Positions 14,143 through 64,000 of a DNA stretch of 64,000 nt are shown piece by piece (the first letter of the stretch is position 1; every line of letters begins with the position of its first letter). The notes beneath the pieces were generated by a model. It saw only the letters and a list, made by a program, of their open reading frames with translations. It did no database searches and had not been told where the DNA came from. Source of the DNA: Alopecurus myosuroides (taxonomy: Eukaryota; Streptophyta; Magnoliopsida; Poales; Poaceae); the NCBI GenBank assembly GCA_028641055.1, contig CM054058.1, positions 497,939,919-498,003,918 of the forward strand, given 5' to 3'. The translations under genes and the position numbers were made by a program.

Positions 14143-17100
14143 TTACATAGGTAAACTGTAAATTAAAAAAGGCAGACGCAAGGGTGATTCACCCATAGCA
14201 GAAAAAAGAAAGTAAAAAACCTCATCAGCCAGAGTCAAAAGGCGCCCCGCCTGCCTGCTCTCGTAGCACAATTGGCGCCCCAGCTTGGACCCAAACTTTG
14301 CCTCATCCTTTATCCGATTGTTGAGTGCAATTCCACTCAACTCTTTTCTGTCGAAAATTCTTCTATTCCGCTCACGCCAAATCTCCCAGTAAATTAGTTT
14401 CAAGCAGGTTGAGGCAGACTTCTTCCTCTCCTTGGAACATGAGCGCGTAATTGCGTGAAACCACTCGCTTAGTGATACCGTCTGGGAGCCCCACGTTTCC
14501 GGGTTCAAACTCGCTTCCCCGAAAAAAAACCGCCGCCCGTGACCACACCAGCCTGCTGAAAGGGCAATCCCGAAACAGGTGACTTGCTGTTTCTAGGTTT
14601 CTGCAACACAAGGGGCAGAAATAATCATTCGGCCATCCACGCTTCAACAGTTGGTCAGCCGTCAACACCCTCCCCATCAATAAGGTCCAGATGAAAAATT
14701 TGCATTTCGCCGGAGCCCATCCCTTCCAAACAGCGTTCTGGATGATGGACCTCTCTGCTCTGAGGAACTGTAACCTGTATGCCAAACTAGCCGAGTAGAC
14801 GTTCTTTTTCCCGTAGCACCATGTGATCTTATCTTGTTCTTGAGTTAGCGTAATCCTGTCCAGATCGTTTGCCAAAGAAACGAGCTGCTCGGTGTGTTGC
14901 TGGTCCAAAGAGAACCGAAGGTCCGTAAGCCATTTGTCATTGCTTAGAGCATCCTCCACCGATCTGTTTTTGCGGACTGGAATTTTGAAGAGATCAGGCG
15001 CCATCAACGCAAGCACCTGCCCGAGTAACCATTTGTCAGTCCAGAACTTCGTCGTTCTGCCATTTCCAAGTGTAACGATAGTTGCTGCCTGGAACATGCT
15101 GCGGTCTATCTTGTTGCAAGGAAGGGTGAAGTGTGCCCAGGGCTTCACCGGTTCTTCCCAACGCTGCCAAAGCCAGCGCAATCTCAAAGCTCTGCTAAAA
15201 GCGGACATACAATGAACCCCTAGTCCCCCAAGAGACTTTGGCCTGCACACTTGTTTCTAATTAACTCTGCATTTCCCACCTCCACAAGTGGATTCGCCTG
15301 CCCAGAGCCAAGCTCTCCGGCGCCTGTCAAACTCCTTCTTAACCCAAGCTGGCATCTCATGAATACTCATTTGGTAAACTGCAAGGGAGGTTAGGACTGA
15401 GTTAAGCATAACAAGTCTTCCTGCTTTGCTCAGTAATCTAGCCTTCCATGCTGCAAGATACTTGTCGACCTTGTCCAACAGAGGCTGCCACTCAGCTTTG
15501 GTGAGCTTCTTCACCGACAAAGGCATACCAAGGTAGGTACACGGGAGATGCACGATTGGCATTTGCATGTTGATTAATAAATCATCAAGGTTTATGTCCT
15601 GGCAGCTGATCGGTGTGACCGAGCTTTTGGTGAAGTTAGTAACTAGACCTGTGACATTACCAAAGCAACTGAAAACTTCCTTAATGCCTGCCAGGTCTCT
15701 AGGTGTAGGGTTGACAAAAAGTGCAACATCATCAGCAAAAAGAGACGTCCTGAAAGAACATTGCTTGCCCTTGATCTTGGAAAGCAAACCAGTTTCTGTG
15801 GCGATATCCAAAAGCCGATGAAGAGGCTCCATCGCTAGGAAGAACAGGAAGGGGGATAGAGAGTCCCCTTGCCGTAGACCACGACAGTGAGTAATCGGCC
15901 GGCCGGGCACCCCATTGACTAGAGGCCTAGAGGTGGCAGAGCGAAAAAGCATAGCCATCCAGCTCCGCCATCTCGACGGAAAACCTCTAGCCTCCAACAT
16001 GTCCAGTAGGTACGTCCACGAGACCGTATCAAAAGCTTTAGCAATGTCGAGCTTCAACAGCAGCGACGGAGTCTTAGTGCGCTGCAGATACTTCAACATA
16101 GAGTTCACATACAGGAAGTTATCCTGTATACTCCTTTTGGCGATGAAAGCACTCTGGCAGGGTGAGATCAGCTCGTCCAACCTCGGGCTCAGACGTCTAG
16201 CCAACACTTTTGTCATAAGCTTAGAGAAGGCGTGGATTAGACTGATGGGCCTATATTGAGAAATATTCGTTGGCTGATCGATCTTCGGAAGAAGGAAGTA
16301 GTGCGATGTGTTAAGACTGCCAAAAGAGCGATCATCAAGATTGTAGAACTTGTTGACTGCATTCATAACATCATCCTTAATCGTGTTCCAAGATGCCCGG
16401 AAGAAAGCTCCAGAGAAACCGTCAGGCCCTGGCGCTTTATCCAATTCGCAGTCAAAGATTGCCTCCCTCACCTCATCCGTGGTGAACCTCTCCCCTAGTT
16501 CTGACAAATCGGCCACCGGTAGCCCTAGTTGTGCCCAGTCAAGGCGCAAAGAAACAGGCACACGGGTGCCAACAATCGAGTTGAAATGAGTGTTAATAAC
16601 TTCTTCAATCTCCCCCGGCAAGGTTGCCACCCCAACATCCGACTCCAAGGAGTGAATTCTATTCTTCTGTTTTCTGCGGTCTGCCCTTATGTGAAAGAAA
16701 CGAGTGTTGGCATCACCAAGCTGTAGCCATTTAATCCTAGCCCGCTGTCTTTGCTTAACTCTGTTGATGACGGCAAGCCCCACCGTCCTAGCTTTAAGGC
16801 TAGACCGAAGATCCCTCTCATGGACAGTCAGCGGCCTCAACTCTTGTGCCTTATCTAGCCTCAGGACAATTTCTTGGGAGACAAGCATTTGTTTCTTGAT
16901 GTCCCCAATATAACACTTGGCCCATCGTGACAGATGACGCCCCAAACGCTTAAGTTTTACATCCAGCACGGCAAAGGCATTTTGGACTGTGCATGGCATG
17001 CCCCAGGACTGCTCAACCACTGATGTATAACCCTCCATGAGAGGCCAGAAGCTCTCGAAACGGAAGCGAGGCGACGAACGCAAGACCAAATCTTGCACAA

Positions 17101-17800
17101 GAAGCAAAGGGCAGTGGTCGGACATTGAGGAGGCCTGAGGGATCAGCTTGGCTGCCGGACAAACTTCCCACCACTCATTATTGGAGAAGGCCCGGTCAAG
17201 CCTAGCCAAAGTAGGTACCTGTTGCTCGTTGCTCCACGTGAATTTTCTACCAACTAGTTTGATCTCCCGTAGAACACTAGCGTCTAGAGCGGTCTTGAAC
17301 CTCCGCATCCATCTCCTATCCACCCTAGCATTGTTCTTGTCTTCATCATGCAGGATCAAGTTAAAATCGCCCAACACCAACCAAGGACCGGTTACCCCGG
17401 CATGTATCTGTACTAGCTCGTCAAGGAATTCTTGTTTTCTGGAGTCGTCACAAGGGCCATACACAGCTGTGAGAGCCCAAACTGAACCACTGATAAGGTC
17501 CTGAAAAGTAACCGTGACCGAGTGCAAGCGGATAGAGATATCGACAGCCTGCAAAATGTCCTCCCGCCAAAACACGAGAATCCCTCCTCTGGTACCAATG
17601 GAAGGAAGTGCTGCACAACCCCGCATCGACGTGCCCACGATGTCAAGCTTATCATAGTCGGATATATGAGAAAGCTTGGACTCCTGCAGGCATAGAATCG
17701 AGCAAGCACAAGAAGCTGCTAAGTCTTTTACTACCGTGCGACGCGCACGGTCATTTAGCCCACGGACATTCCAGGATAGAATTTTGTGGTGTCTAAACAT
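14143..17800 (-). pseudogene. LINE ORF2: endonuclease/reverse transcriptase, two lesions
   Basis: From ATG 17800 (MFRHHKILSWNVRGLN) the frame runs through an APE-type endonuclease (LQESKL; GDFNLI near residue 145; SDH near 225) and a reverse transcriptase (QYRPISL; LDIAKAFD near 583; GLRQGDSLSPFLF; FADD near 688). It continues with a zf-RVT zinc-binding region (CPLC and HLFRDC, at about 14560-14620). A TAG at 15257-15259 stops the frame after the thumb region, in a position where the same frame resumes directly. A second lesion is a frame change at the A-run 14522-14529 (T8 on the coding strand). All catalytic residues I can check are present. Family length of about 1,200 codons is normal for plant LINEs. 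The product copies LINE RNA into nicked chromosomal DNA. Confidence 0.9.
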
Positions 17801-18157
17801 TGGAGTTAGCTTGACAGACCCACTGCGGGGTTGAAAGCGTGCCGCAAGTGACAAAGCGAAGGCAAAAGAGGCACAAAGTGACCGATCTAACAAGCACACA
17901 AGGAATACTGATACAGTGACAACACCAAACGGAGTGTCGCGTGGTGACAAGCTGAGCTGATACAAACAGGCTAGCCCAAGTGCAGTTGTAGTGCGACCAG
18001 GTGGCAAACAGCATAGAACTGTTGCCCATCTTCTCCCACCCAACTGAGGCATGCTGATGAACATAGGACACAGAAAGCAGAAAAACTAAAGAGCTCGAAC
18101 TGAGGTAGATTTGACAATCCATTGAACAAGATAGACTGAGAGGCGGCCTAGCAATTC

Positions 18158-50140: not shown

Positions 50141-51327
50141 ATTACCAAAAACTAACACATTTAGGAAAGTGGTTATCGGTCGGTACCTGTCTTGGTATTT
50201 TTTCCTTAAAAAATCTACCAAATATAGGACCAACGACCATGAAAAACGCCGATTGTCCTTTAACACCATGTTGATAGCAGTTCTAACATGTGGAGCCTAC
50301 TTGTCAGAGCTAAGTTGGCAGCACATGTGGATGTGGAGCTGAGGTGGACGTGGGACCCACCTGTCAGCCCCTCTTTTTTCCCTCTCTCTCTCCTTCTTCC
50401 TCAAACTCTCGCTCGCAAATCTTCTATGGTGTTGCCCCTACTACATCGGGCTACGGCTCCCCCGCCGTCCACCCCTACCCCCACCCCGATGTCACCTCCT
50501 TCCTTCCCCAAAGCCCATGTCGCCGCTCTGCCGCCCTCAGTGCTCTGCACAAGGCACCATGCATGTGGACGCGTGTCAGGGCACATGTGGAGTCGAGATT
50601 GAGGCACTGGAGTGCCCAAATCGAGCGTGGAGGCGTGGCTCTACCACGTATGCATGTCCACTTCAGCTTTTCATCCAGGTATGCTGCCTAATCATCCCTT
50701 GGCCCTACCGGTCAGCATTGCTATCAAAAAGCATTTAGACAAAAATCAGTCCAAATTGTTGTCATTGGTCCGATGGCCGGTAGTTTTTTCAAAAAAATTG
50801 TCAAGATTGGTACTAACTCGTATCTAGTGCTTCAAATGTAGTAGTTATTTTTTTTTTTTTTGTAATTTAATTCCCGGACACAATGAAAGAGCCCGTGGTC
50901 TTTTATGCCATTGCCAGCCGGCAATCAGCACGAACCACAGGCCCCCATGGACCATGGCCTATCCCAGCACTAGAGTGCATTACGTTATGGGCCTACTTTG
51001 CCTGCCCTAAATGCTTCCCAGGCACGGGGAAGGCGTGTGGAAACTGTTAGCGTGTCATCAGAAGAAAGCGTTTTTTAAAGCTTAAGAACTTTCCTTGGTT
51101 CTTCTCGAGTCAGAAGATTTATGTACTCCACAAAGAAAGGCACAAAGCCCCCCCTGTTGAAGTGGTGGGCATACCATACCAGCATGTGCAGAAGATCTAT
51201 CATGTGCTTGATGGCATTCCACTTCCCTGTTCTGTTTTTCCGTGCTACGGTGCCACGTCTCTTCGCACCTCACCGCTCGCCGACAGGCGGGACCGGACAC
51301 GCGCTGGCCCCAGGTGCCGTTCCGGCC
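50141..51327. other. Interval left of the Mutator array, no gene seen
   Basis: GC-rich patches (around 50290-50650) include the grass-typical GTGGGACCCACCTGTCAG; short overlapping frames there have no recognised domain. A T-run lies near 50850. The end, GTTCCGGCC, is the left junction of the array. Confidence 0.35.
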
Positions 51328-54300
51328 GGAAATTAATCCTATACGACCAGGGTCGTACCTCCCAAGGCTGGACCACCTCCTCCAATCGACACCTGGATTC
51401 CCTTTTTTTTTTGCGAGAAGCAGCTTATCCCCAATCTCTCCCGAATCGTCTCGCCTTCACACGCTCTGCTGCTAGTCCAAGCTCGTCGGTGCATCCACCG
51501 GCGGCCAGCGCTGTCTCCTAATTTCCACAGCCACGCTTGTCGGCGTATCCAGCGAACTCGCGTGCTTCCCGGCATCCATGCCCACGCTCGTCGGCGGATC
51601 AGCCAGCGCTCGCCAGCGTGCACGGCCGCGCTCGCCGGCGTCCATGGCCGCGCTCGCCAGCGCCCATGGCCAGTGATGGATTGCCCAACGCTCGCGGGTG
51701 CCGGGGATGCTGCACAGCGTATGCTTCCTCCTCTACCTCAACATCTACGGGCACCTCCATTACCGGCGAGTCGGCTGTCTGAAGAAGTTCAACGGAGCAC
51801 AACAACCAGCTCCAGGCCAGAGACCAAGCAAATACGGTACGTTACACATAGAATCTCAGAAATTGTAATCTCACACATCTACAACCCTGATTAATCAGGC
51901 ATTCACGCAGAGTACCACGGGCTAGTAATCCAAACGTACAGTACTCTTCCTGGCTACAACATTTACAAATTGTTTTTTAGATTCACTCAAGTTACAAATT
52001 GTAAGTACTACCATACTTTAATTAGTACTAGTACTCCAGGCTATGTTACTAGTACAAAGAAACCTTAACTAGTACTAGTACTCCAGGCTGTAGCGAGAAC
52101 CATTGTGCACAAGATATATTCATCACTATCACAAGATGTATTCACCAATAAGCACACAATATTAGAATAAAAGGATGTCTTCAGTGTTATGTTGGAACAA
52201 GTATTAGAAAATTTTAGCTGACATGCCCAGCTAACTAGCAGTAAGGCGCCATCATAACACATCACTGCTGAAACTTTGATGTACTAGCACCTTCGCCAAA
52301 ATCCAATTGACGAGCAGTCGGTGGTATTGTGCTATCTCCGTGAACTTCAAACAATAATCTTGTAAACTCTCCTTGGATAGATGGAATGGGAACTGACGGA
52401 TACTCTCCGGATGGCATGACTGTGTATGGATTTATATTATCAACACAATGAAATTCCAAAGCTCTAGTTGTGGGCGGAACAAAAACTGACGGATACTCTC
52501 CAAATGGCATGGTTGGTGGATTTGTATTATCAGCACGATGAAATTCCAAAGCTCTAGTTCTGGGTGGAACAAGTACTGATTCCTTTGCTGCATGGTTTGC
52601 ATCTTTTCCTGCATATTGTGTGTGTAAACAAGAAATTAGAAAACTGAAACCTTGCTATTTATTTGCACTTAACAAGTCAGTGTACCTTTTTTCTTGCCTT
52701 TCTTTGCTCCCTCTAGCACATCTTTTGATCTTTTGTTCATCGGACCTTTTATTCTTTCAGGAGCTTTAAACGGTACCGTTGTTTTGGCGATATCTTCAGT
52801 AGTTTCAGGGGAACTTTCAGGCTCCTCATCTTCATCCAACTTTAGCTTGCTAAGTAAATCGTCTGCTTCCAAAGCCAACTTATCAATACCATTGTTAAGG
52901 TACACAAGAACCTCCTTCGAAGTTTTACACTTCAATCCAAGTGACATCATCTTTCGAGAAGTGTGTGCAAACATGGATTCTAGGGTATCATTGATATTGA
53001 GTTCGGATTTAAAAATTTCTTGCTTCGCATATTTTGTCCATCTGTTCAGTATGTACTGCCTTGGTAGGGTAATGATATTGCAGCAGGTGAAAACCTTATG
53101 AGCATGCTTGCATAATATACCTACAATATTAAGAAAAAATTCATTAGGTAAACCCAAATATTGTCATATTAAAGAATAGATAGAGAGAGAGAGAGTACAT
53201 GTAATACATACCTATACACCCATACAACCTGCATGAACAAGATATCTCCAATGTACTTGGGTTAAAAGCCACTATGGCTTCATCATTCTTGTACTGGAAG
53301 GATGTCACCTTGTAAGTGCTAATTGTGCCGTAGACACGCACTAAAACACATGACAAAGAAAATTGCTTTTTGAATTCCTCTTCAAACTCGGAGTAGAGTG
53401 TCCTAGTATATGACTCAGCTGCAGTCTTCAACAATGGTAGGTCAGATATGCAAAGTACCGGGTCGGTATGGCGTGATTTGTAGTCTTCATACTTCTCTTT
53501 CCTACGAAGACGAGAAGTGCACTTATCGTATGCTTGTAGAAATTCAGAGAGGCAAAGTTTTTTGCGAAAACTTTTCTTGAACACATTGTTCATTCCTTCG
53601 CTCCTCTGGGTCGACGTCATGTCTGCACTAAAAGACTCTCGCCGATAAATAGTAGCCCACTTCTCACGCAACTTGTACAAATTATTTAGCCAAGAATTCC
53701 CCACAACCTGGTATTTCGCCAATAGCTCGTGCCATCTATTCTCAAAATGTGCCACTGATCTATCTTCATACACACATCTCTTGAATCCTTTAAGAAACTC
53801 GGGATGGTCACTGATTACTTGACTTAGGTGTTTGGCGGCATTTTGATACAAATGCCATAAACAAAGACGATGGAATATACCGGGGAATACATTTCCAATA
53901 GCCTTTATAATGGCAGCACATTGATCAGTGAATATTGTTTCAGGCTGCTTACCGGACATAGCTTGTAGGAAGGTTCTAAAAAGCCACTCGAATGAATCTG
54001 CACTTTCATCAAATAGCAAGGCTGCACCAAAAAGGATAGTCTGTTTGTGATGGTTAACACCAATAAGAGGAGCGAATGGCATTTTAAACTTATTTGTTGA
54101 GAATGTGGTGTCAAATGAAATAGCATCTCCAAAGACAGAATAATCCATGATAGCTTGTCCATCTGCCCAAAAGATATTCATTATTCTACCATCATCTTCT
54201 TTTGATGTGTGCACGGCATAGAAGAATGAAGGGTCCTCAACTTGCTTATTCTTTAAATACTCCATTAGTGTGGCTGCATCATTGGATTCTAAATACTTCT

Positions 54301-55451
54301 TGCGCTCACTTCTTAAGTAATTGTTGCAATCCATTTGCATGAAAGGTACACCATCCTTACCATACCATTGCTCACAGAAATCATATATTTCGGCTTGTGT
54401 AATTCCCGATGCTCTCATTTGATTAATCATGTGGCGGTCAACATCTAAGAGTTGACGCTGAGATCTAAGCATGTGCCTCTTATCAGGACTTACGAGCTGA
54501 TGATTGTGGTCAAGGATAACTTTCTGAATATTCCAAATACCCTCTCTAGTGACGGTGAACTGAACACGAGCCATACAAGCACACCTCGAAGTAGCTTGTT
54601 CTTTCTGGGTTACGTGTGTTGGATGATTAGCCTTCACACCTGACTTGCTACAAACAAAATGTCTGGAAGATAAAGTTCCATCTGCTCTCTGCTTCCTGTG
54701 GCACCTCCTAATGCTGAATCCATTGGCTTTACCATAAGAATTATAAAATTTGTATGCCTCTTCCTCGGAATGAAAGATCATCCCAACTTTTGGGACATTT
54801 GTGTCTGATGAATTTTGATTATCAGCCTGCAACGACATTTACTTTACTGTCAGTTGTTGATGATCATATTGCAACAAACATTGTAGACTGATTAGTAGTT
54901 TTACATTATCTCCATCTTCCACGTCAAGATCGTTTCTTGGTGTGTTACTTGCCCTTGGCTGTCCGCTGGTTACATCCTCCGTAGCACTCAAATTTTCTAA
55001 TGGTGATTGTTGCTGAGAGTTTGCAATCAATTAATAGAGGGTTTGGGTAGTCATTACATGTACGTATATAGATAAAAATTGTATAAAGCAGACTGGTACA
55101 TACCATAGGTGCAGGGGCCGTGGGAAGAGAAGGTTGGGGCGGAGGGGCTGCCATCCGTATTCCCTACCCGTGCGCCGCGCTGCTGCTCGATGACTTGCGG
55201 CGTTGTCGCCGGGATCTTGCTGTGCCGTCGCCGTCGATGGCCACGTGAGATGAGAAGAGAAAGAAGAGTGGTTAGGGAAACCAGATTGTGTTATCGTGGG
55301 AAGCGGGAATAGCGTTTTGGTCGTTGGGGAAGCGATCTAGCAGGCGTGTGGATGACTGCTTTGCTTTAAGATCTGGTTTGCTACGTGGCAGACGTACCAG
55401 GTGGTCCAGCCTTTTGGGAGGTACGACCGTGGTCGTATAGGATTAATTTCC
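51328..55451 (-). mobile_element. FAR1-type Mutator-like element, tandem copy 1
   Basis: Terminal inverted repeats are 51 bp on the left (51328-51378, starting GGAAATTAATCC) and 53 bp on the right (55399-55451). They differ by one substitution and two extra bases. The element encodes a five-exon FAR1/MULE transposase on the minus strand and no other supported gene. About 900 bp between the left repeat and the transposase stop contain short repeats (TTAACTAGTACTAGTACTCC twice near 52020-52090). The next copy starts after only CGGCC. The left flank is GTTCCGGCC. No 9-bp target duplication can be confirmed because the right edge of the array is outside the window. Confidence 0.88.
52262..55154 (-). 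CDS. FAR1/MULE-type transposase, copy 1 (intact)
   Basis: The model is complement(join(52262..52608,52686..53120,53212..54826,54905..55012,55104..55154)). All introns have GT-AG ends, phases agree throughout, and the CDS totals 2556 nt, 851 residues. The FAR1 DNA-binding domain (about 69-163) starts GMIFHSEEEAYKFYNSYG and keeps the zinc-binding Cys/His pattern, ending HNHQL. The MULE catalytic core follows: FDTTF with D292, FTDQ with D354, the CLWH pair C375/H378, and RSEGMNN with E463. The SWIM zinc finger C583-x-C585...C595-x-H597 spans intron 3, which supports the splice model. The C-terminus carries two repeats ending GEYPSV. Known relatives (FAR1/FHY3, Jittery-like transposases) bind terminal repeats and move DNA; FHY3/FAR1 are domesticated versions. 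The terminal repeats here argue for a transposase, not a host regulator. Confidence 0.9.
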
Positions 55452-55507
55452 CGGCCGGAAATTAATCCTATACGACCAGGGTCGTACCTCCCAAGGCTGG
55501 ACCACCT
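55399..55507. repeat. Near-palindromic junction between Mutator copies 1 and 2
   Basis: The right repeat of copy 1 (to 55451), the 5-bp spacer CGGCC and the left repeat of copy 2 (from 55457) together form an inverted repeat with arms of about 51-53 bp. The same arrangement recurs at 59529-59637 and 63659-63767. Confidence 0.9.
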
Positions 55508-58500
55508 CCTCCAATCGACACCTGGATTCCCTTTTTTTTTTTGCGAGAAGCAGCTTATCCCCAATCTCTCCCGAATCGTCTCGCCTTCACACGCTCTGCT
55601 GCTAGTCCAAGCTCGTCGGTGCATCCACCGGCGGCCAGCGCTGTCTCCTAATTTCCACAGCCACGCTTGTCGGCGTATCCAGCGAACTCGCGTGCTTCCC
55701 GGCATCCATGCCCACGCTCGTCGGCGGATCAGCCAGCGCTCGCCAGCGTGCACGGCCGCGCTCGCCGGCGTCCATGGCCGCGCTCGCCAGCGCCCATGGC
55801 CAGTGATGGATTGCCCAACGCTCGCGGGTGCCGGGGATGCTGCACAGCGTATGCTTCCTCCTCTACCTCAACATCTACGGGCACCTCCATTACCGGCGAG
55901 TCGGCTGTCTGAAGAAGTTCAACGGAGCACAACAACCAGCTCCAGGCCAGAGACCAAGCAAATACGGTACGTTACACATAGAATCTCAGAAATTGTAATC
56001 TCACACATCTACAACCCTGATTAATCAGGCATTCACGCAGAGTACCACGGGCTAGTAATCCAAACGTACAGTACTCTTCCTGGCTACAACATTTACAAAT
56101 TGTTTTTTAGATTCACTCAAGTTACAAATTGTAAGTACTACCATACTTTAATTAGTACTAGTACTCCAGGCTATGTTACTAGTACAAAGAAACCTTAACT
56201 AGTACTAGTACTCCAGGCTGTAGCGAGAACCATTGTGCACAAGATATATTCATCACTATCACAAGATGTATTCACCAATAAGCACACAATATTAGAATAA
56301 AAGGATGTCTTCAGTGTTATGTTGGAACAAGTATTAGAAAATTTTAGCTGACATGCCCAGCTAACTAGCAGTAAGGCGCCATCATAACACATCACTGCTG
56401 AAACTTTGATGTACTAGCACCTTCGCCAAAATCCAATTGACGAGCAGTCGGTGGTATTGTGCTATCTCCGTGAACTTCAAACAATAATCTTGTAAACTCT
56501 CCTTGGATAGATGGAATGGGAACTGACGGATACTCTCCGGATGGCATGACTGTGTATGGATTTATATTATCAACACAATGAAATTCCAAAGCTCTAGTTG
56601 TGGGCGGAACAAAAACTGACGGATACTCTCCAAATGGCATGGTTGGTGGATTTGTATTATCAGCACGATGAAATTCCAAAGCTCTAGTTCTGGGTGGAAC
56701 AAGTACTGATTCCTTTGCTGCATGGTTTGCATCTTTTCCTGCATATTGTGTGTGTAAACAAGAAATTAGAAAACTGAAACCTTGCTATTTATTTGCACTT
56801 AACAAGTCAGTGTACCTTTTTTCTTGCCTTTCTTTGCTCCCTCTAGCACATCTTTTGATCTTTTGTTCATCGGACCTTTTATTCTTTCAGGAGCTTTAAA
56901 CGGTACCGTTGTTTTGGCGATATCTTCAGTAGTTTCAGGGGAACTTTCAGGCTCCTCATCTTCATCCAACTTTAGCTTGCTAAGTAAATCGTCTGCTTCC
57001 AAAGCCAACTTATCAATACCATTGTTAAGGTACACAAGAACCTCCTTCGAAGTTTTACACTTCAATCCAAGTGACATCATCTTTCGAGAAGTGTGTGCAA
57101 ACATGGATTCTAGGGTATCATTGATATTGAGTTCGGATTTAAAAATTTCTTGCTTCGCATATTTTGTCCATCTGTTCAGTATGTACTGCCTTGGTAGGGT
57201 AATGATATTGCAGCAGGTGAAAACCTTATGAGCATGCTTGCATAATATACCTACAATATTAAGAAAAAATTCATTAGGTAAACCCAAATATTGTCATATT
57301 AAAGAATAGATAGAGAGAGAGAGAGTACATGTAATACATACCTATACACCCATACAACCTGCATGAACAAGATATCTCCAATGTACTTGGGTTAAAAGCC
57401 ACTATGGCTTCATCATTCTTGTACTGGAAGGATGTCACCTTGTAAGTGCTAATTGTGCCGTAGACACGCACTAAAACACATGACAAAGAAAATTGCTTTT
57501 TGAATTCCTCTTCAAACTCGGAGTAGAGTGTCCTAGTATATGACTCAGCTGCAGTCTTCAACAATGGTAGGTCAGATATGCAAAGTACCGGGTCGGTATG
57601 GCGTGATTTGTAGTCTTCATACTTCTCTTTCCTACGAAGACGAGAAGTGCACTTATCGTATGCTTGTAGAAATTCAGAGAGGCAAAGTTTTTTGCGAAAA
57701 CTTTTCTTGAACACATTGTTCATTCCTTCGCTCCTCTGGGTCGACGTCATGTCTGCACTAAAAGACTCTCGCCGATAAATAGTAGCCCACTTCTCACGCA
57801 ACTTGTACAAATTATTTAGCCAAGAATTCCCCACAACCTGGTATTTCGCCAATAGCTCGTGCCATCTATTCTCAAAATGTGCCACTGATCTATCTTCATA
57901 CACACATCTCTTGAATCCTTTAAGAAACTCGGGATGGTCACTGATTACTTGACTTAGGTGTTTGGCGGCATTTTGATACAAATGCCATAAACAAAGACGA
58001 TGGAATATACCGGGGAATACATTTCCAATAGCCTTTATAATGGCAGCACATTGATCAGTGAATATTGTTTCAGGCTGCTTACCGGACATAGCTTGTAGGA
58101 AGGTTCTAAAAAGCCACTCGAATGAATCTGCACTTTCATCAAATAGCAAGGCTGCACCAAAAAGGATAGTCTGTTTGTGATGGTTAACACCAATAAGAGG
58201 AGCGAATGGCATTTTAAACTTATTTGTTGAGAATGTGGTGTCAAATGAAATAGCATCTCCAAAGACAGAATAATCCATGATAGCTTGTCCATCTGCCCAA
58301 AAGATATTCATTATTCTACCATCATCTTCTTTTGATGTGTGCACGGCATAGAAGAATGAAGGGTCCTCAACTTGCTTATTCTTTAAATACTCCATTAGTG
58401 TGGCTGCATCATTGGATTCTAAATACTTCTTGCGCTCACTTCTTAAGTAATTGTTGCAATCCATTTGCATGAAAGGTACACCATCCTTACCATACCATTG

Positions 58501-59581
58501 CTCACAGAAATCATATATTTCGGCTTGTGTAATTCCCGATGCTCTCATTTGATTAATCATGTGGCGGTCAACATCTAAGAGTTGACGCTGAGATCTAAGC
58601 ATGTGCCTCTTATCAGGACTTACGAGCTGATGATTGTGGTCAAGGATAACTTTCTGAATATTCCAAATACCCTCTCTAGTGACGGTGAACTGAACACGAG
58701 CCATACAAGCACACCTCGAAGTAGCTTGTTCTTTCTGGGTTACGTGTGTTGGATGATTAGCCTTCACACCTGACTTGCTACAAACAAAATGTCTGGAAGA
58801 TAAAGTTCCATCTGCTCTCTGCTTCCTGTGGCACCTCCTAATGCTGAATCCATTGGCTTTACCATAAGAATTATAAAATTTGTATGCCTCTTCCTCGGAA
58901 TGAAAGATCATCCCAACTTTTGGGACATTTGTGTCTGATGAATTTTGATTATCAGCCTGCAACGACATTTACTTTACTGTCAGTTGTTGATGATCATATT
59001 GCAACAAACATTGTAGACTGATTAGTAGTTTTACATTATCTCCATCTTCCACGTCAAGATCGTTTCTTGGTGTGTTACTTGCCCTTGGCTGTCCGCTGGT
59101 TACATCCTCCGTAGCACTCAAATTTTCTAATGGTGATTGTTGCTGAGAGTTTGCAATCAATTAATAGAGGGTTTGGGTAGTCATTACATGTACGTATATA
59201 GATAAAAATTGTATAAAGCAGACTGGTACATACCATAGGTGCAGGGGCCGTGGGAAGAGAAGGTTGGGGCGGAGGGGCTGCCATCCGTATTCCCTACCCG
59301 TGCGCCGCGCTGCTGCTCGATGACTTGCGGCGTTGTCGCCGGGATCTTGCTGTGCCGTCGCCGTCGATGGCCACGTGAGATGAGAAGAGAAAGAAGAGTG
59401 GTTAGGGAAACCAGATTGTGTTATCGTGGGAAGCGGGAATAGCGTTTTGGTCGTTGGGGAAGCGATCTAGCAGGCGTGTGGATGACTGCTTTGCTTTAAG
59501 ATCTGGTTTGCTACGTGGCAGACGTACCAGGTGGTCCAGCCTTTTGGGAGGTACGACCGTGGTCGTATAGGATTAATTTCC
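55457..59581 (-). mobile_element. FAR1-type Mutator-like element, tandem copy 2
   Basis: Repeats copy 1 with a period of 4130 bp; the only difference I noticed is a T-run of 11 instead of 10 (55532-55542 against 51403-51412). Same terminal repeats, same orientation, followed by CGGCC (59582-59586). Confidence 0.9.
56392..59284 (-). CDS. FAR1/MULE-type transposase, copy 2 (intact)
   Basis: Exons are 56392-56738, 56816-57250, 57342-58956, 59035-59142 and 59234-59284. The translated main exon and C-terminal exons are identical to copy 1, with all catalytic and zinc-binding residues kept. Confidence 0.9.
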
Positions 59582-59586
59582 CGGCC

Positions 59587-62500
59587 GGAAATTAATCCTA
59601 TACGACCAGGGTCGTACCTCCCAAGGCTGGACCACCTCCTCCAATCGACACCTGGATTCCCTTTTTTTTTTTGCGAGAAGCAGCTTATCCCCAATCTCTC
59701 CCGAATCGTCTCGCCTTCACACGCTCTGCTGCTAGTCCAAGCTCGTCGGTGCATCCACCGGCGGCCAGCGCTGTCTCCTAATTTCCACAGCCACGCTTGT
59801 CGGCGTATCCAGCGAACTCGCGTGCTTCCCGGCATCCATGCCCACGCTCGTCGGCGGATCAGCCAGCGCTCGCCAGCGTGCACGGCCGCGCTCGCCGGCG
59901 TCCATGGCCGCGCTCGCCAGCGCCCATGGCCAGTGATGGATTGCCCAACGCTCGCGGGTGCCGGGGATGCTGCACAGCGTATGCTTCCTCCTCTACCTCA
60001 ACATCTACGGGCACCTCCATTACCGGCGAGTCGGCTGTCTGAAGAAGTTCAACGGAGCACAACAACCAGCTCCAGGCCAGAGACCAAGCAAATACGGTAC
60101 GTTACACATAGAATCTCAGAAATTGTAATCTCACACATCTACAACCCTGATTAATCAGGCATTCACGCAGAGTACCACGGGCTAGTAATCCAAACGTACA
60201 GTACTCTTCCTGGCTACAACATTTACAAATTGTTTTTTAGATTCACTCAAGTTACAAATTGTAAGTACTACCATACTTTAATTAGTACTAGTACTCCAGG
60301 CTATGTTACTAGTACAAAGAAACCTTAACTAGTACTAGTACTCCAGGCTGTAGCGAGAACCATTGTGCACAAGATATATTCATCACTATCACAAGATGTA
60401 TTCACCAATAAGCACACAATATTAGAATAAAAGGATGTCTTCAGTGTTATGTTGGAACAAGTATTAGAAAATTTTAGCTGACATGCCCAGCTAACTAGCA
60501 GTAAGGCGCCATCATAACACATCACTGCTGAAACTTTGATGTACTAGCACCTTCGCCAAAATCCAATTGACGAGCAGTCGGTGGTATTGTGCTATCTCCG
60601 TGAACTTCAAACAATAATCTTGTAAACTCTCCTTGGATAGATGGAATGGGAACTGACGGATACTCTCCGGATGGCATGACTGTGTATGGATTTATATTAT
60701 CAACACAATGAAATTCCAAAGCTCTAGTTGTGGGCGGAACAAAAACTGACGGATACTCTCCAAATGGCATGGTTGGTGGATTTGTATTATCAGCACGATG
60801 AAATTCCAAAGCTCTAGTTCTGGGTGGAACAAGTACTGATTCCTTTGCTGCATGGTTTGCATCTTTTCCTGCATATTGTGTGTGTAAACAAGAAATTAGA
60901 AAACTGAAACCTTGCTATTTATTTGCACTTAACAAGTCAGTGTACCTTTTTTCTTGCCTTTCTTTGCTCCCTCTAGCACATCTTTTGATCTTTTGTTCAT
61001 CGGACCTTTTATTCTTTCAGGAGCTTTAAACGGTACCGTTGTTTTGGCGATATCTTCAGTAGTTTCAGGGGAACTTTCAGGCTCCTCATCTTCATCCAAC
61101 TTTAGCTTGCTAAGTAAATCGTCTGCTTCCAAAGCCAACTTATCAATACCATTGTTAAGGTACACAAGAACCTCCTTCGAAGTTTTACACTTCAATCCAA
61201 GTGACATCATCTTTCGAGAAGTGTGTGCAAACATGGATTCTAGGGTATCATTGATATTGAGTTCGGATTTAAAAATTTCTTGCTTCGCATATTTTGTCCA
61301 TCTGTTCAGTATGTACTGCCTTGGTAGGGTAATGATATTGCAGCAGGTGAAAACCTTATGAGCATGCTTGCATAATATACCTACAATATTAAGAAAAAAT
61401 TCATTAGGTAAACCCAAATATTGTCATATTAAAGAATAGATAGAGAGAGAGAGAGTACATGTAATACATACCTATACACCCATACAACCTGCATGAACAA
61501 GATATCTCCAATGTACTTGGGTTAAAAGCCACTATGGCTTCATCATTCTTGTACTGGAAGGATGTCACCTTGTAAGTGCTAATTGTGCCGTAGACACGCA
61601 CTAAAACACATGACAAAGAAAATTGCTTTTTGAATTCCTCTTCAAACTCGGAGTAGAGTGTCCTAGTATATGACTCAGCTGCAGTCTTCAACAATGGTAG
61701 GTCAGATATGCAAAGTACCGGGTCGGTATGGCGTGATTTGTAGTCTTCATACTTCTCTTTCCTACGAAGACGAGAAGTGCACTTATCGTATGCTTGTAGA
61801 AATTCAGAGAGGCAAAGTTTTTTGCGAAAACTTTTCTTGAACACATTGTTCATTCCTTCGCTCCTCTGGGTCGACGTCATGTCTGCACTAAAAGACTCTC
61901 GCCGATAAATAGTAGCCCACTTCTCACGCAACTTGTACAAATTATTTAGCCAAGAATTCCCCACAACCTGGTATTTCGCCAATAGCTCGTGCCATCTATT
62001 CTCAAAATGTGCCACTGATCTATCTTCATACACACATCTCTTGAATCCTTTAAGAAACTCGGGATGGTCACTGATTACTTGACTTAGGTGTTTGGCGGCA
62101 TTTTGATACAAATGCCATAAACAAAGACGATGGAATATACCGGGGAATACATTTCCAATAGCCTTTATAATGGCAGCACATTGATCAGTGAATATTGTTT
62201 CAGGCTGCTTACCGGACATAGCTTGTAGGAAGGTTCTAAAAAGCCACTCGAATGAATCTGCACTTTCATCAAATAGCAAGGCTGCACCAAAAAGGATAGT
62301 CTGTTTGTGATGGTTAACACCAATAAGAGGAGCGAATGGCATTTTAAACTTATTTGTTGAGAATGTGGTGTCAAATGAAATAGCATCTCCAAAGACAGAA
62401 TAATCCATGATAGCTTGTCCATCTGCCCAAAAGATATTCATTATTCTACCATCATCTTCTTTTGATGTGTGCACGGCATAGAAGAATGAAGGGTCCTCAA

Positions 62501-63711
62501 CTTGCTTATTCTTTAAATACTCCATTAGTGTGGCTGCATCATTGGATTCTAAATACTTCTTGCGCTCACTTCTTAAGTAATTGTTGCAATCCATTTGCAT
62601 GAAAGGTACACCATCCTTACCATACCATTGCTCACAGAAATCATATATTTCGGCTTGTGTAATTCCCGATGCTCTCATTTGATTAATCATGTGGCGGTCA
62701 ACATCTAAGAGTTGACGCTGAGATCTAAGCATGTGCCTCTTATCAGGACTTACGAGCTGATGATTGTGGTCAAGGATAACTTTCTGAATATTCCAAATAC
62801 CCTCTCTAGTGACGGTGAACTGAACACGAGCCATACAAGCACACCTCGAAGTAGCTTGTTCTTTCTGGGTTACGTGTGTTGGATGATTAGCCTTCACACC
62901 TGACTTGCTACAAACAAAATGTCTGGAAGATAAAGTTCCATCTGCTCTCTGCTTCCTGTGGCACCTCCTAATGCTGAATCCATTGGCTTTACCATAAGAA
63001 TTATAAAATTTGTATGCCTCTTCCTCGGAATGAAAGATCATCCCAACTTTTGGGACATTTGTGTCTGATGAATTTTGATTATCAGCCTGCAACGACATTT
63101 ACTTTACTGTCAGTTGTTGATGATCATATTGCAACAAACATTGTAGACTGATTAGTAGTTTTACATTATCTCCATCTTCCACGTCAAGATCGTTTCTTGG
63201 TGTGTTACTTGCCCTTGGCTGTCCGCTGGTTACATCCTCCGTAGCACTCAAATTTTCTAATGGTGATTGTTGCTGAGAGTTTGCAATCAATTAATAGAGG
63301 GTTTGGGTAGTCATTACATGTACGTATATAGATAAAAATTGTATAAAGCAGACTGGTACATACCATAGGTGCAGGGGCCGTGGGAAGAGAAGGTTGGGGC
63401 GGAGGGGCTGCCATCCGTATTCCCTACCCGTGCGCCGCGCTGCTGCTCGATGACTTGCGGCGTTGTCGCCGGGATCTTGCTGTGCCGTCGCCGTCGATGG
63501 CCACGTGAGATGAGAAGAGAAAGAAGAGTGGTTAGGGAAACCAGATTGTGTTATCGTGGGAAGCGGGAATAGCGTTTTGGTCGTTGGGGAAGCGATCTAG
63601 CAGGCGTGTGGATGACTGCTTTGCTTTAAGATCTGGTTTGCTACGTGGCAGACGTACCAGGTGGTCCAGCCTTTTGGGAGGTACGACCGTGGTCGTATAG
63701 GATTAATTTCC
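59587..63711 (-). mobile_element. FAR1-type Mutator-like element, tandem copy 3
   Basis: Third complete unit with the same T11 run, the same repeats and spacer CGGCC at 63712-63716. I saw no difference from copy 2. Confidence 0.9.
60522..63414 (-). CDS. FAR1/MULE-type transposase, copy 3 (intact)
   Basis: Exons are 60522-60868, 60946-61380, 61472-63086, 63165-63272 and 63364-63414. The protein is identical to copies 1 and 2. Confidence 0.9.
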
Positions 63712-63716
63712 CGGCC

Positions 63717-64000
63717 GGAAATTAATCCTATACGACCAGGGTCGTACCTCCCAAGGCTGGACCACCTCCTCCAATCGACACCTGGATTCCCTTTTTTTTT
63801 TTGCGAGAAGCAGCTTATCCCCAATCTCTCCCGAATCGTCTCGCCTTCACACGCTCTGCTGCTAGTCCAAGCTCGTCGGTGCATCCACCGGCGGCCAGCG
63901 CTGTCTCCTAATTTCCACAGCCACGCTTGTCGGCGTATCCAGCGAACTCGCGTGCTTCCCGGCATCCATGCCCACGCTCGTCGGCGGATCAGCCAGCGCT
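63717..64000 (-). mobile_element. FAR1-type Mutator-like element, copy 4, cut by window end
   Basis: Only the first 284 bp (left terminal repeat and T11 region) are inside the window. The array therefore continues to the right for an unknown number of units. Confidence 0.88.

Follow-up and report, generated by a model that had tools for sequence, protein, structure and literature searches.

In Alopecurus myosuroides, a head-to-tail array of a FAR1-type Mutator-like element (MULE) fills the last 12.7 kb of the 64,000-nucleotide stretch analysed here (C2:497939919-498003918, hereafter the window), where three full copies and the beginning of another are separated at each join by the same 5 bp, CGGCC. 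These 5 bp also lie directly to the left of copy 1, as the final 5 bp of the host flank, and genome-wide searches in the same 3.57-Gb assembly revealed a common rule for joins of this family at five loci, one of which couples two clearly different elements. The explanation that we favour, and to which we give about an even chance, is that transposase joined an element onto the terminus of a resident copy and that the product was then amplified by recombination.

The array comprises four copies of 4,124, 4,125, 4,125 and 4,128 bp (copies 1-4), all with the transposase on the minus strand, and overruns the window edge, with copy 4 ending at C2:498007762 (window coordinate 67844). Copy 1 occupies positions 51328-55451, copy 2 55457-59581, copy 3 59587-63711 and the visible start of copy 4 63717-64000, the CGGCC spacers of joins 1 to 3 being found at 55452-55456, 59582-59586 and 63712-63716. 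Comparison of the flanks showed that the 9-mer to the left of the array, GTTCCGGCC (GTTC-CGGCC, 51319-51327), carries the spacer at its right-hand edge (final 5 bp, 51323-51327). No difference separates copy 2 from copy 3, and copy 1 is one T shorter in a T-run, as the initial annotation had reported when it described a single homopolymer difference. The copies were also said to be seemingly identical, which is true of these three (apart from that T) and does not extend to copy 4, in which eight short insertions or deletions (indels) and one substitution break the transposase frame as assembled. Because these differences are mostly indels, they suggest that copy 4 probably carries uncorrected read errors and not the marks of age. 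The single-spacer, head-to-tail arrangement proposed by the same annotation was thus confirmed, with all three joins reading CGGCC and the array continuing past the window, and its view that the amplification looks recent is judged right.

Joins elsewhere were sought genome-wide with a pattern of two facing, well-kept ends 0-30 bp apart, which misses old pairs. The 41 forward matches all fell within five loci, and the reversed-pattern control gave none. They were distributed as three at C2, two at C3:22.8 Mb, one at C3:225.5 Mb, 29 at C6:346.08-346.10 Mb and six at C7:343.04 and 343.07 Mb, two C7 arrays 29 kb apart being counted as a single locus. The spacer measured 5 bp in 35 of the 41 matches and 7 bp in the remaining six, all at C7. 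At every one of the five loci it equals the edge of a known flanking 9-mer, a coincidence with a chance of ≤ 0.004 per 5-bp locus; with the spacer in brackets, these 9-mers read GTTC[CGGCC] at C2, [GTTGA]ATTG at C3:22.8 Mb, [GCCCG]AAAA at C3:225.5 Mb (C3b), [GTGGG]ATGG at C6 and TC[AAGCAAT] at C7. Ends of this family are therefore found joined to each other through a short spacer that can come from either flank, as chromosomal joins and not as intermediates.

The arrays vary in size and regularity, and their units differ in sequence at three loci (C3:22.8 Mb, C3:225 Mb and C7). At C3:22844136-22847500, a related non-autonomous array of four units has two joins reading GTTGA, and the 9-bp duplication GTTGAATTG still bounds it at either edge; its units are distinguished by substitutions and by how many 79-bp tandem right ends they carry. 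The satellite-like array at C6:346084004-346102475 (L038-L040) contains 29 full MULE-derived units of 625 bp, 28 of them identical and one with a single change, plus a 30th cut at 202 bp; its joins read GTGGG, its left flank is GTGGGATGG and its right flank has been lost. Copy numbers at C2 and C6 are those of the assembly. The C7 arrays are formed by units of about 200 bp (189-200) joined by AAGCAAT, with the right flank TCAAGCAAT at one of the two. As a separate observation, the 79-bp right end is present at C3:22.84 Mb (L010 4843-5079 and 5790-5947) in three tandem copies in unit 1 and in two in unit 2, with the exact terminus linked to an internal site, an arrangement comparable to that described by Ferguson and Jiang.

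Several other candidates were rejected as joins. A match at C1:333.75 Mb with a 19-bp spacer had no family end within four mismatches, and those at C1:628 Mb (22 bp) and C6:18.7 Mb (17 bp) were judged from their letters to be due to chance. The same-strand ends 1,319 bp apart at C1:37.4 Mb belong to a larger duplication that takes in the flank, a different phenomenon. This region (L018, C1:37422000-37431500) holds a 1.3-kb tandem duplication, 99.7% identical, which lies beside or across family ends and includes flank.

Target duplications and the mixed pair

The joins have to be seen against the behaviour of ordinary insertions of the family. The 21-bp end gave 420 and 422 genome matches at up to three mismatches, versus 18 and 30 for the reversed control, and the members examined were mostly elements of about 200 bp. 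Target duplications were surveyed at 58 loci, seven of them one-ended; 57 came from among the end matches listed and one from another search, so that the sample leans to young copies, and L018, L019, L036 and longer or decayed copies other than L013 were left out. The survey yielded 54 pairs, reduced to 48 once repeats of the same insertion were removed and to 47 without a loose false match (L025 221-501). An exact 9-bp duplication was present in 31 of these 47 unique complete elements, and in 36 when up to two mismatches were accepted. Only two showed a duplication of 5 bp instead, one beside a family member at C3:225.5 Mb and the other beside a look-alike end at C3:79.7 Mb, and nine had neither (L024, L029-E1, L034, L035, L046, L048, L053, L061 and L072), L024 having a 10-bp duplication with one mismatch. 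A remnant at C3:461.68 Mb (L093), consisting of just two element tips, represents either an internal deletion or an excision relic.

At the C3:225.5 Mb locus the order is E1 - GCCCG - E2 - GCCCGAAAA, with GCCCG flanking E2 on both sides. E2 differs from its neighbour E1 in 99 alignment columns and from an element at C1:585.9 Mb in only three, and these sequence relationships suggest that E2 came from elsewhere and landed exactly at the terminus of E1, generating a 5-bp duplication. Copying of a single element cannot yield such a pair, which supports joining targeted to element ends.

The element at C3:79.7 Mb, where GATAA is duplicated before the host sequence GGAAATTA, was also considered as a possible case of targeting of end-like DNA. 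The corresponding control was unsupportive: with arrays and pairs set aside and one repeat family scored as a single locus, 14 loci had GGAAA within 0-14 bp of an end-like match, the distances ranged from 1 to 14, and just one was 5. It was accordingly set aside as a weak case.

The element and its transposase

The ends of the element read GGAAATTAATCCTATACGACC..., and its terminal inverted repeats are of 51 and 53 bp, 94% identical, which in copy 1 occupy 51328-51378 (plus strand) and 55399-55451 (minus strand; measured on copy 2 and placed on copy 1). A frame of 564 codons is open in copies 1 to 3, at 53144-54838, 57274-58968 and 61404-63098 on the minus strand. The copy 1 frame matches the Pfam families FAR1 (PF03101, E 1.7e-18), MULE (PF10551, E 1.5e-30, above cut-off) and Transposase_mut (PF00872), the last with E 3.3e-7 and 30 bits against a curated cut-off of 21. 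With a MULE transposase domain, a FAR1 DNA-binding domain, terminal inverted repeats and a family norm of 9-bp target duplication, the element is a FAR1-type MULE. The initial annotation, made from the letters and their translations, had thus correctly recognized a Mutator-like transposon with both terminal repeats and an intact transposase in the three full copies. An internal tandem repeat of 90 bp (2.1 copies) lies at 52391-52579, and at the corresponding position of the next two copies.

When aligned by eye with its relatives, the main frame seems to stop in an intron, which its last codons probably enter, the next exon lying in a neighbouring frame of 162 codons (52669-53157, minus strand, for copy 1, with an inferred splice site) that likely encodes the remainder of their zinc-finger motif. 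The pieces of this SWIM zinc finger, split by the probable intron, also align by eye with the relatives, and neither piece has a match in Pfam. The closest proteins are found in Avena, Hordeum, Festuca and others. In the modelled transposase (mean predicted local distance difference test score, pLDDT, 70.6; predicted template modelling score, pTM, 0.51), structure matches at E <= 0.001 comprised five PDB chains, all of ISCth4, a member of the IS256 family, with template modelling (TM) scores of 0.25-0.48. ISCth4 was also the best PDB profile match, a weak one (E 0.0068). The PF00872 match and these fold matches point to a transposase related to the IS256 family.

Origin of the joins

From the joins, their spacers, the identity of spacer and flank edge, the 9-bp norm and the mixed pair we infer a pathway in which a copy already in place offers its terminus as the site to which the transposase of a FAR1-type MULE joins a further element. 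A single transposon end would attack host DNA lying 5 bp beyond the resident terminus, or 7 bp beyond it in the case of one locus, and the two copies would then follow each other head to tail, separated by 5 bp of flank. If the donor were the same element, present for example on the sister chromatid or as a circle, a uniform dimer would be formed; a different donor, as may have occurred at C3:225.5 Mb, would give a mixed pair in which a 5-bp duplication replaces the usual 9 bp. Once established, a direct dimer could be lengthened by unequal recombination, to four copies at C2 and to about 30 at C6. The initial annotation had offered three mechanisms, namely a circular or rolling intermediate, insertion of the element into its own end and unequal exchange. 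Insertion at the element's own end is the best supported of these, by the joins at five loci, their common spacer rule and the one case in which a different element was joined. Unequal exchange is likely for the growth of dimers, as in the 30-copy C6 array, and cannot by itself make the first join. A circular intermediate would also be compatible with the arrays.

A number of observations weigh against transposase-mediated end joining. The outer flanks of the C2 array, GTTCCGGCC and CCCCAACAC, do not form a target duplication when compared, and to account for them a right-hand duplication would have to have been lost exactly at the element terminus. An outer duplication kept on both edges is seen at C3:22.8 Mb only: C2 and C3b have no matching one, and the right edge of C6 and the left edge of C7 have been lost. 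The joins also show irregularities, since at the third one of C3:22.8 Mb the spacer is missing together with the 21 bp that should open the last unit, and at C7 degenerate ends lie 2 bp apart in one join and one unit is truncated. Differently worded searches found on C1148 a degenerate pair with an 11-bp spacer, which was taken as an ordinary neighbour because a 9-bp duplication, imperfect at one position, flanks its first element. The arrays are known here as assembled chromosomal joins, and the structural model linking the transposase to bacterial enzymes is modest in both its confidence and its TM values. Finally, Liu and Wessler (2017) reportedly assigned the eukaryotic MULE Muta1 to a hAT-like hairpin cut-and-paste path.

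A second FAR1-MULE family, with 36% protein identity in a protein search, adds a further point of this kind. At C7:52.38 and 52.40 Mb it forms direct pairs with a spacing of 4,995 bp, in which the ends GGGGCTTGCC are separated by 1 bp; the two pairs have a common join and may represent one event. Direct stacking is therefore wider than the first family, and a 5-bp spacer is not universal. The surrounding cluster (C7:52377920-52410340, L094-L100) seemingly lies partly in a large inverted duplication, the outer flanks of L099 and L100 being reverse complements.

It is unlikely that a replication or repair accident, such as a template switch, or repair of the gap left by excision from one sister chromatid, duplicated the element and that unequal exchange followed, with no transposase involved in the join. 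Spacers made of pieces of flank are what would be expected from copying that overshoots the end by a few bases, and the 79-bp tandem terminal repeats in the C3:22.8 Mb units resemble the products of such accidents. Nevertheless, at four of the five loci the intact joins run from the exact terminal base on one side to a point 5 bp out on the other, and a mixed pair is impossible by copying one element.

We consider it quite improbable that an ordinary 9-bp insertion, spanning the last 4 bp of the resident end and 5 bp of flank, was followed by collapse of the GGAA/TTCC overlap. The arithmetic of this route fits (5 + 4 = 9 and 7 + 2 = 9), and the lone element at C3:79.7 Mb, with its GATAA duplication next to GGAAATTA, looks alike. 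On the other hand, a lone insertion at C1:604.8 Mb into the target TATTGGGAA has the full 9-bp duplication on both sides, so collapse is not obligatory, and the 30-bp remnant at C3:461.7 Mb retains AGAAGGAA (8 bp) on both sides; these two cases were found by searching for uncollapsed ones and thus give no rate. Moreover, the additional 4 bp that collapse calls for are absent at all three scorable outer edges (C2 left, C3:22.8 right and C3:225 right).

Rather doubtful too is a circle carrying 5 bp of flank between its ends that recombined homologously into a resident copy or was rolled out. It predicts the first two joins at C3:22.8 Mb, where the order is 9-bp duplication, copy, 5 bp, copy and so on up to the second 9-bp duplication, and circular forms are cited for maize Mu1, Mu1.7 and a yeast MULE (PMC3942029). 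However, a circle does not produce a mixed pair with internally unlike members, and the arrays themselves are known as chromosomal joins only. Very improbable, lastly, is an assembly artefact at C2, raised earlier as a real alternative, in which the tandem copies would be a graph expansion: eight of the nine differences of copy 4 are short indels resembling uncorrected read errors, but the array is bordered left and right by sequence that is not part of it, the spacer rule also holds at loci with units of differing sequence, which cannot be expansions, and an assembly error thus fails to explain the family-wide pattern, the exact C2 copy number being taken as assembled.

Related systems and other features

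Tandem dimers of IS256 are reportedly known, according to the title of one paper. Bacterial relatives of the MULE transposase link one transposon end to DNA just outside the other, ISCth4 junctions carrying 6-8 bp of flank from either end and those of IS256 5, 6, 7 or 19 bp; an ordinary ISCth4 insertion duplicates 8 bp, exceeding its most used spacer (PMC7780238). Several prokaryotic elements of the superfamily have circular forms that contain 6-10 bp from one flank, and a circle-forming chemistry shared by eukaryotic MULEs and their bacterial relatives has been proposed (PMC3942029). The plant and bacterial cases are alike in that ends are joined with a few base pairs of flank from either side and in the related transposase fold, and they differ in that the bacterial junctions occur as intermediates or in vitro whereas the plant side is known from chromosomal arrays alone. 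The arrays described here share the anatomy of the bacterial junctions. We advance only tentatively, and with somewhat more doubt than confidence, the broader proposal that strand transfer by a plant MULE transposase is asymmetric and IS256-like, with one end attacking 5-7 bp outside another within or between copies, the products being preserved as head-to-tail arrays, and that the array of about 30 copies is a satellite in the making.

IS30 offers another parallel. It inserts at its own ends and forms dimers between copies and probably also on partly replicated DNA, and it resembles the present family in having left-right joins only, a fixed spacer and a resident end as target (PMC9333248). 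In contrast, its spacer measures 2 bp, its dimers are described as highly unstable when carried by high-copy plasmids while chromosomally stable enough to spread, and many-copy arrays are not described in the passages of that source (PMC9333248).

Among plant MULEs, those of Ferguson and Jiang 2012 (PMC3310237) have extra terminal repeats inside, in partial likeness to the 79-bp tandem right ends at C3:22.8 Mb. In their elements, however, the repeats are added within one element, the internal repeat has no flanking duplication, and the sole transposase-bearing example in tomato is decayed (PMC3310237). At C2, unlike this pattern of extra repeats in one element with an outer duplication only, the repeated units are whole elements with intact transposase frames, separated by a spacer that derives from the flank. 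The SaTar multimers of guayule and rice are non-nested, end-to-end MULE arrays, for which filler-bearing circles and homologous recombination have been put forward as a speculative origin by those who described them; they comprise unrelated elements tied to microsatellites (PMC5907723), whereas the joins examined here consist of 5-7 bp of ordinary flank with no microsatellite and mostly involve one element, the C2 copies being all of the same one. VANDAL21 of Arabidopsis is a plant MULE thought to use the ends of two neighbouring copies (PMC12312487). It differs in starting from head-to-head copies about 200 bp apart and in yielding deletions, inversions and complex changes, with no head-to-tail arrays with a fixed spacer in the passages of that paper (PMC12312487).

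Fixed, flank-derived spacers in MULE arrays were not found described in the literature searched, which barely covered subscription journals and is no proof of absence. To our knowledge, the question of a shared circle-forming chemistry in eukaryotic MULEs is not settled, and flank-derived spacers of 5-7 bp would provide a sequence signature for it, open to scoring in any plant genome sequenced with long reads. The family also supplies a candidate transposase to assay, and its joins offer a concrete first step from DNA transposon to tandem repeat.

Away from the array, the window contains at 15260-18085 (minus strand) a frame of long interspersed nuclear element (LINE) type, with reverse transcriptase and endonuclease domains.

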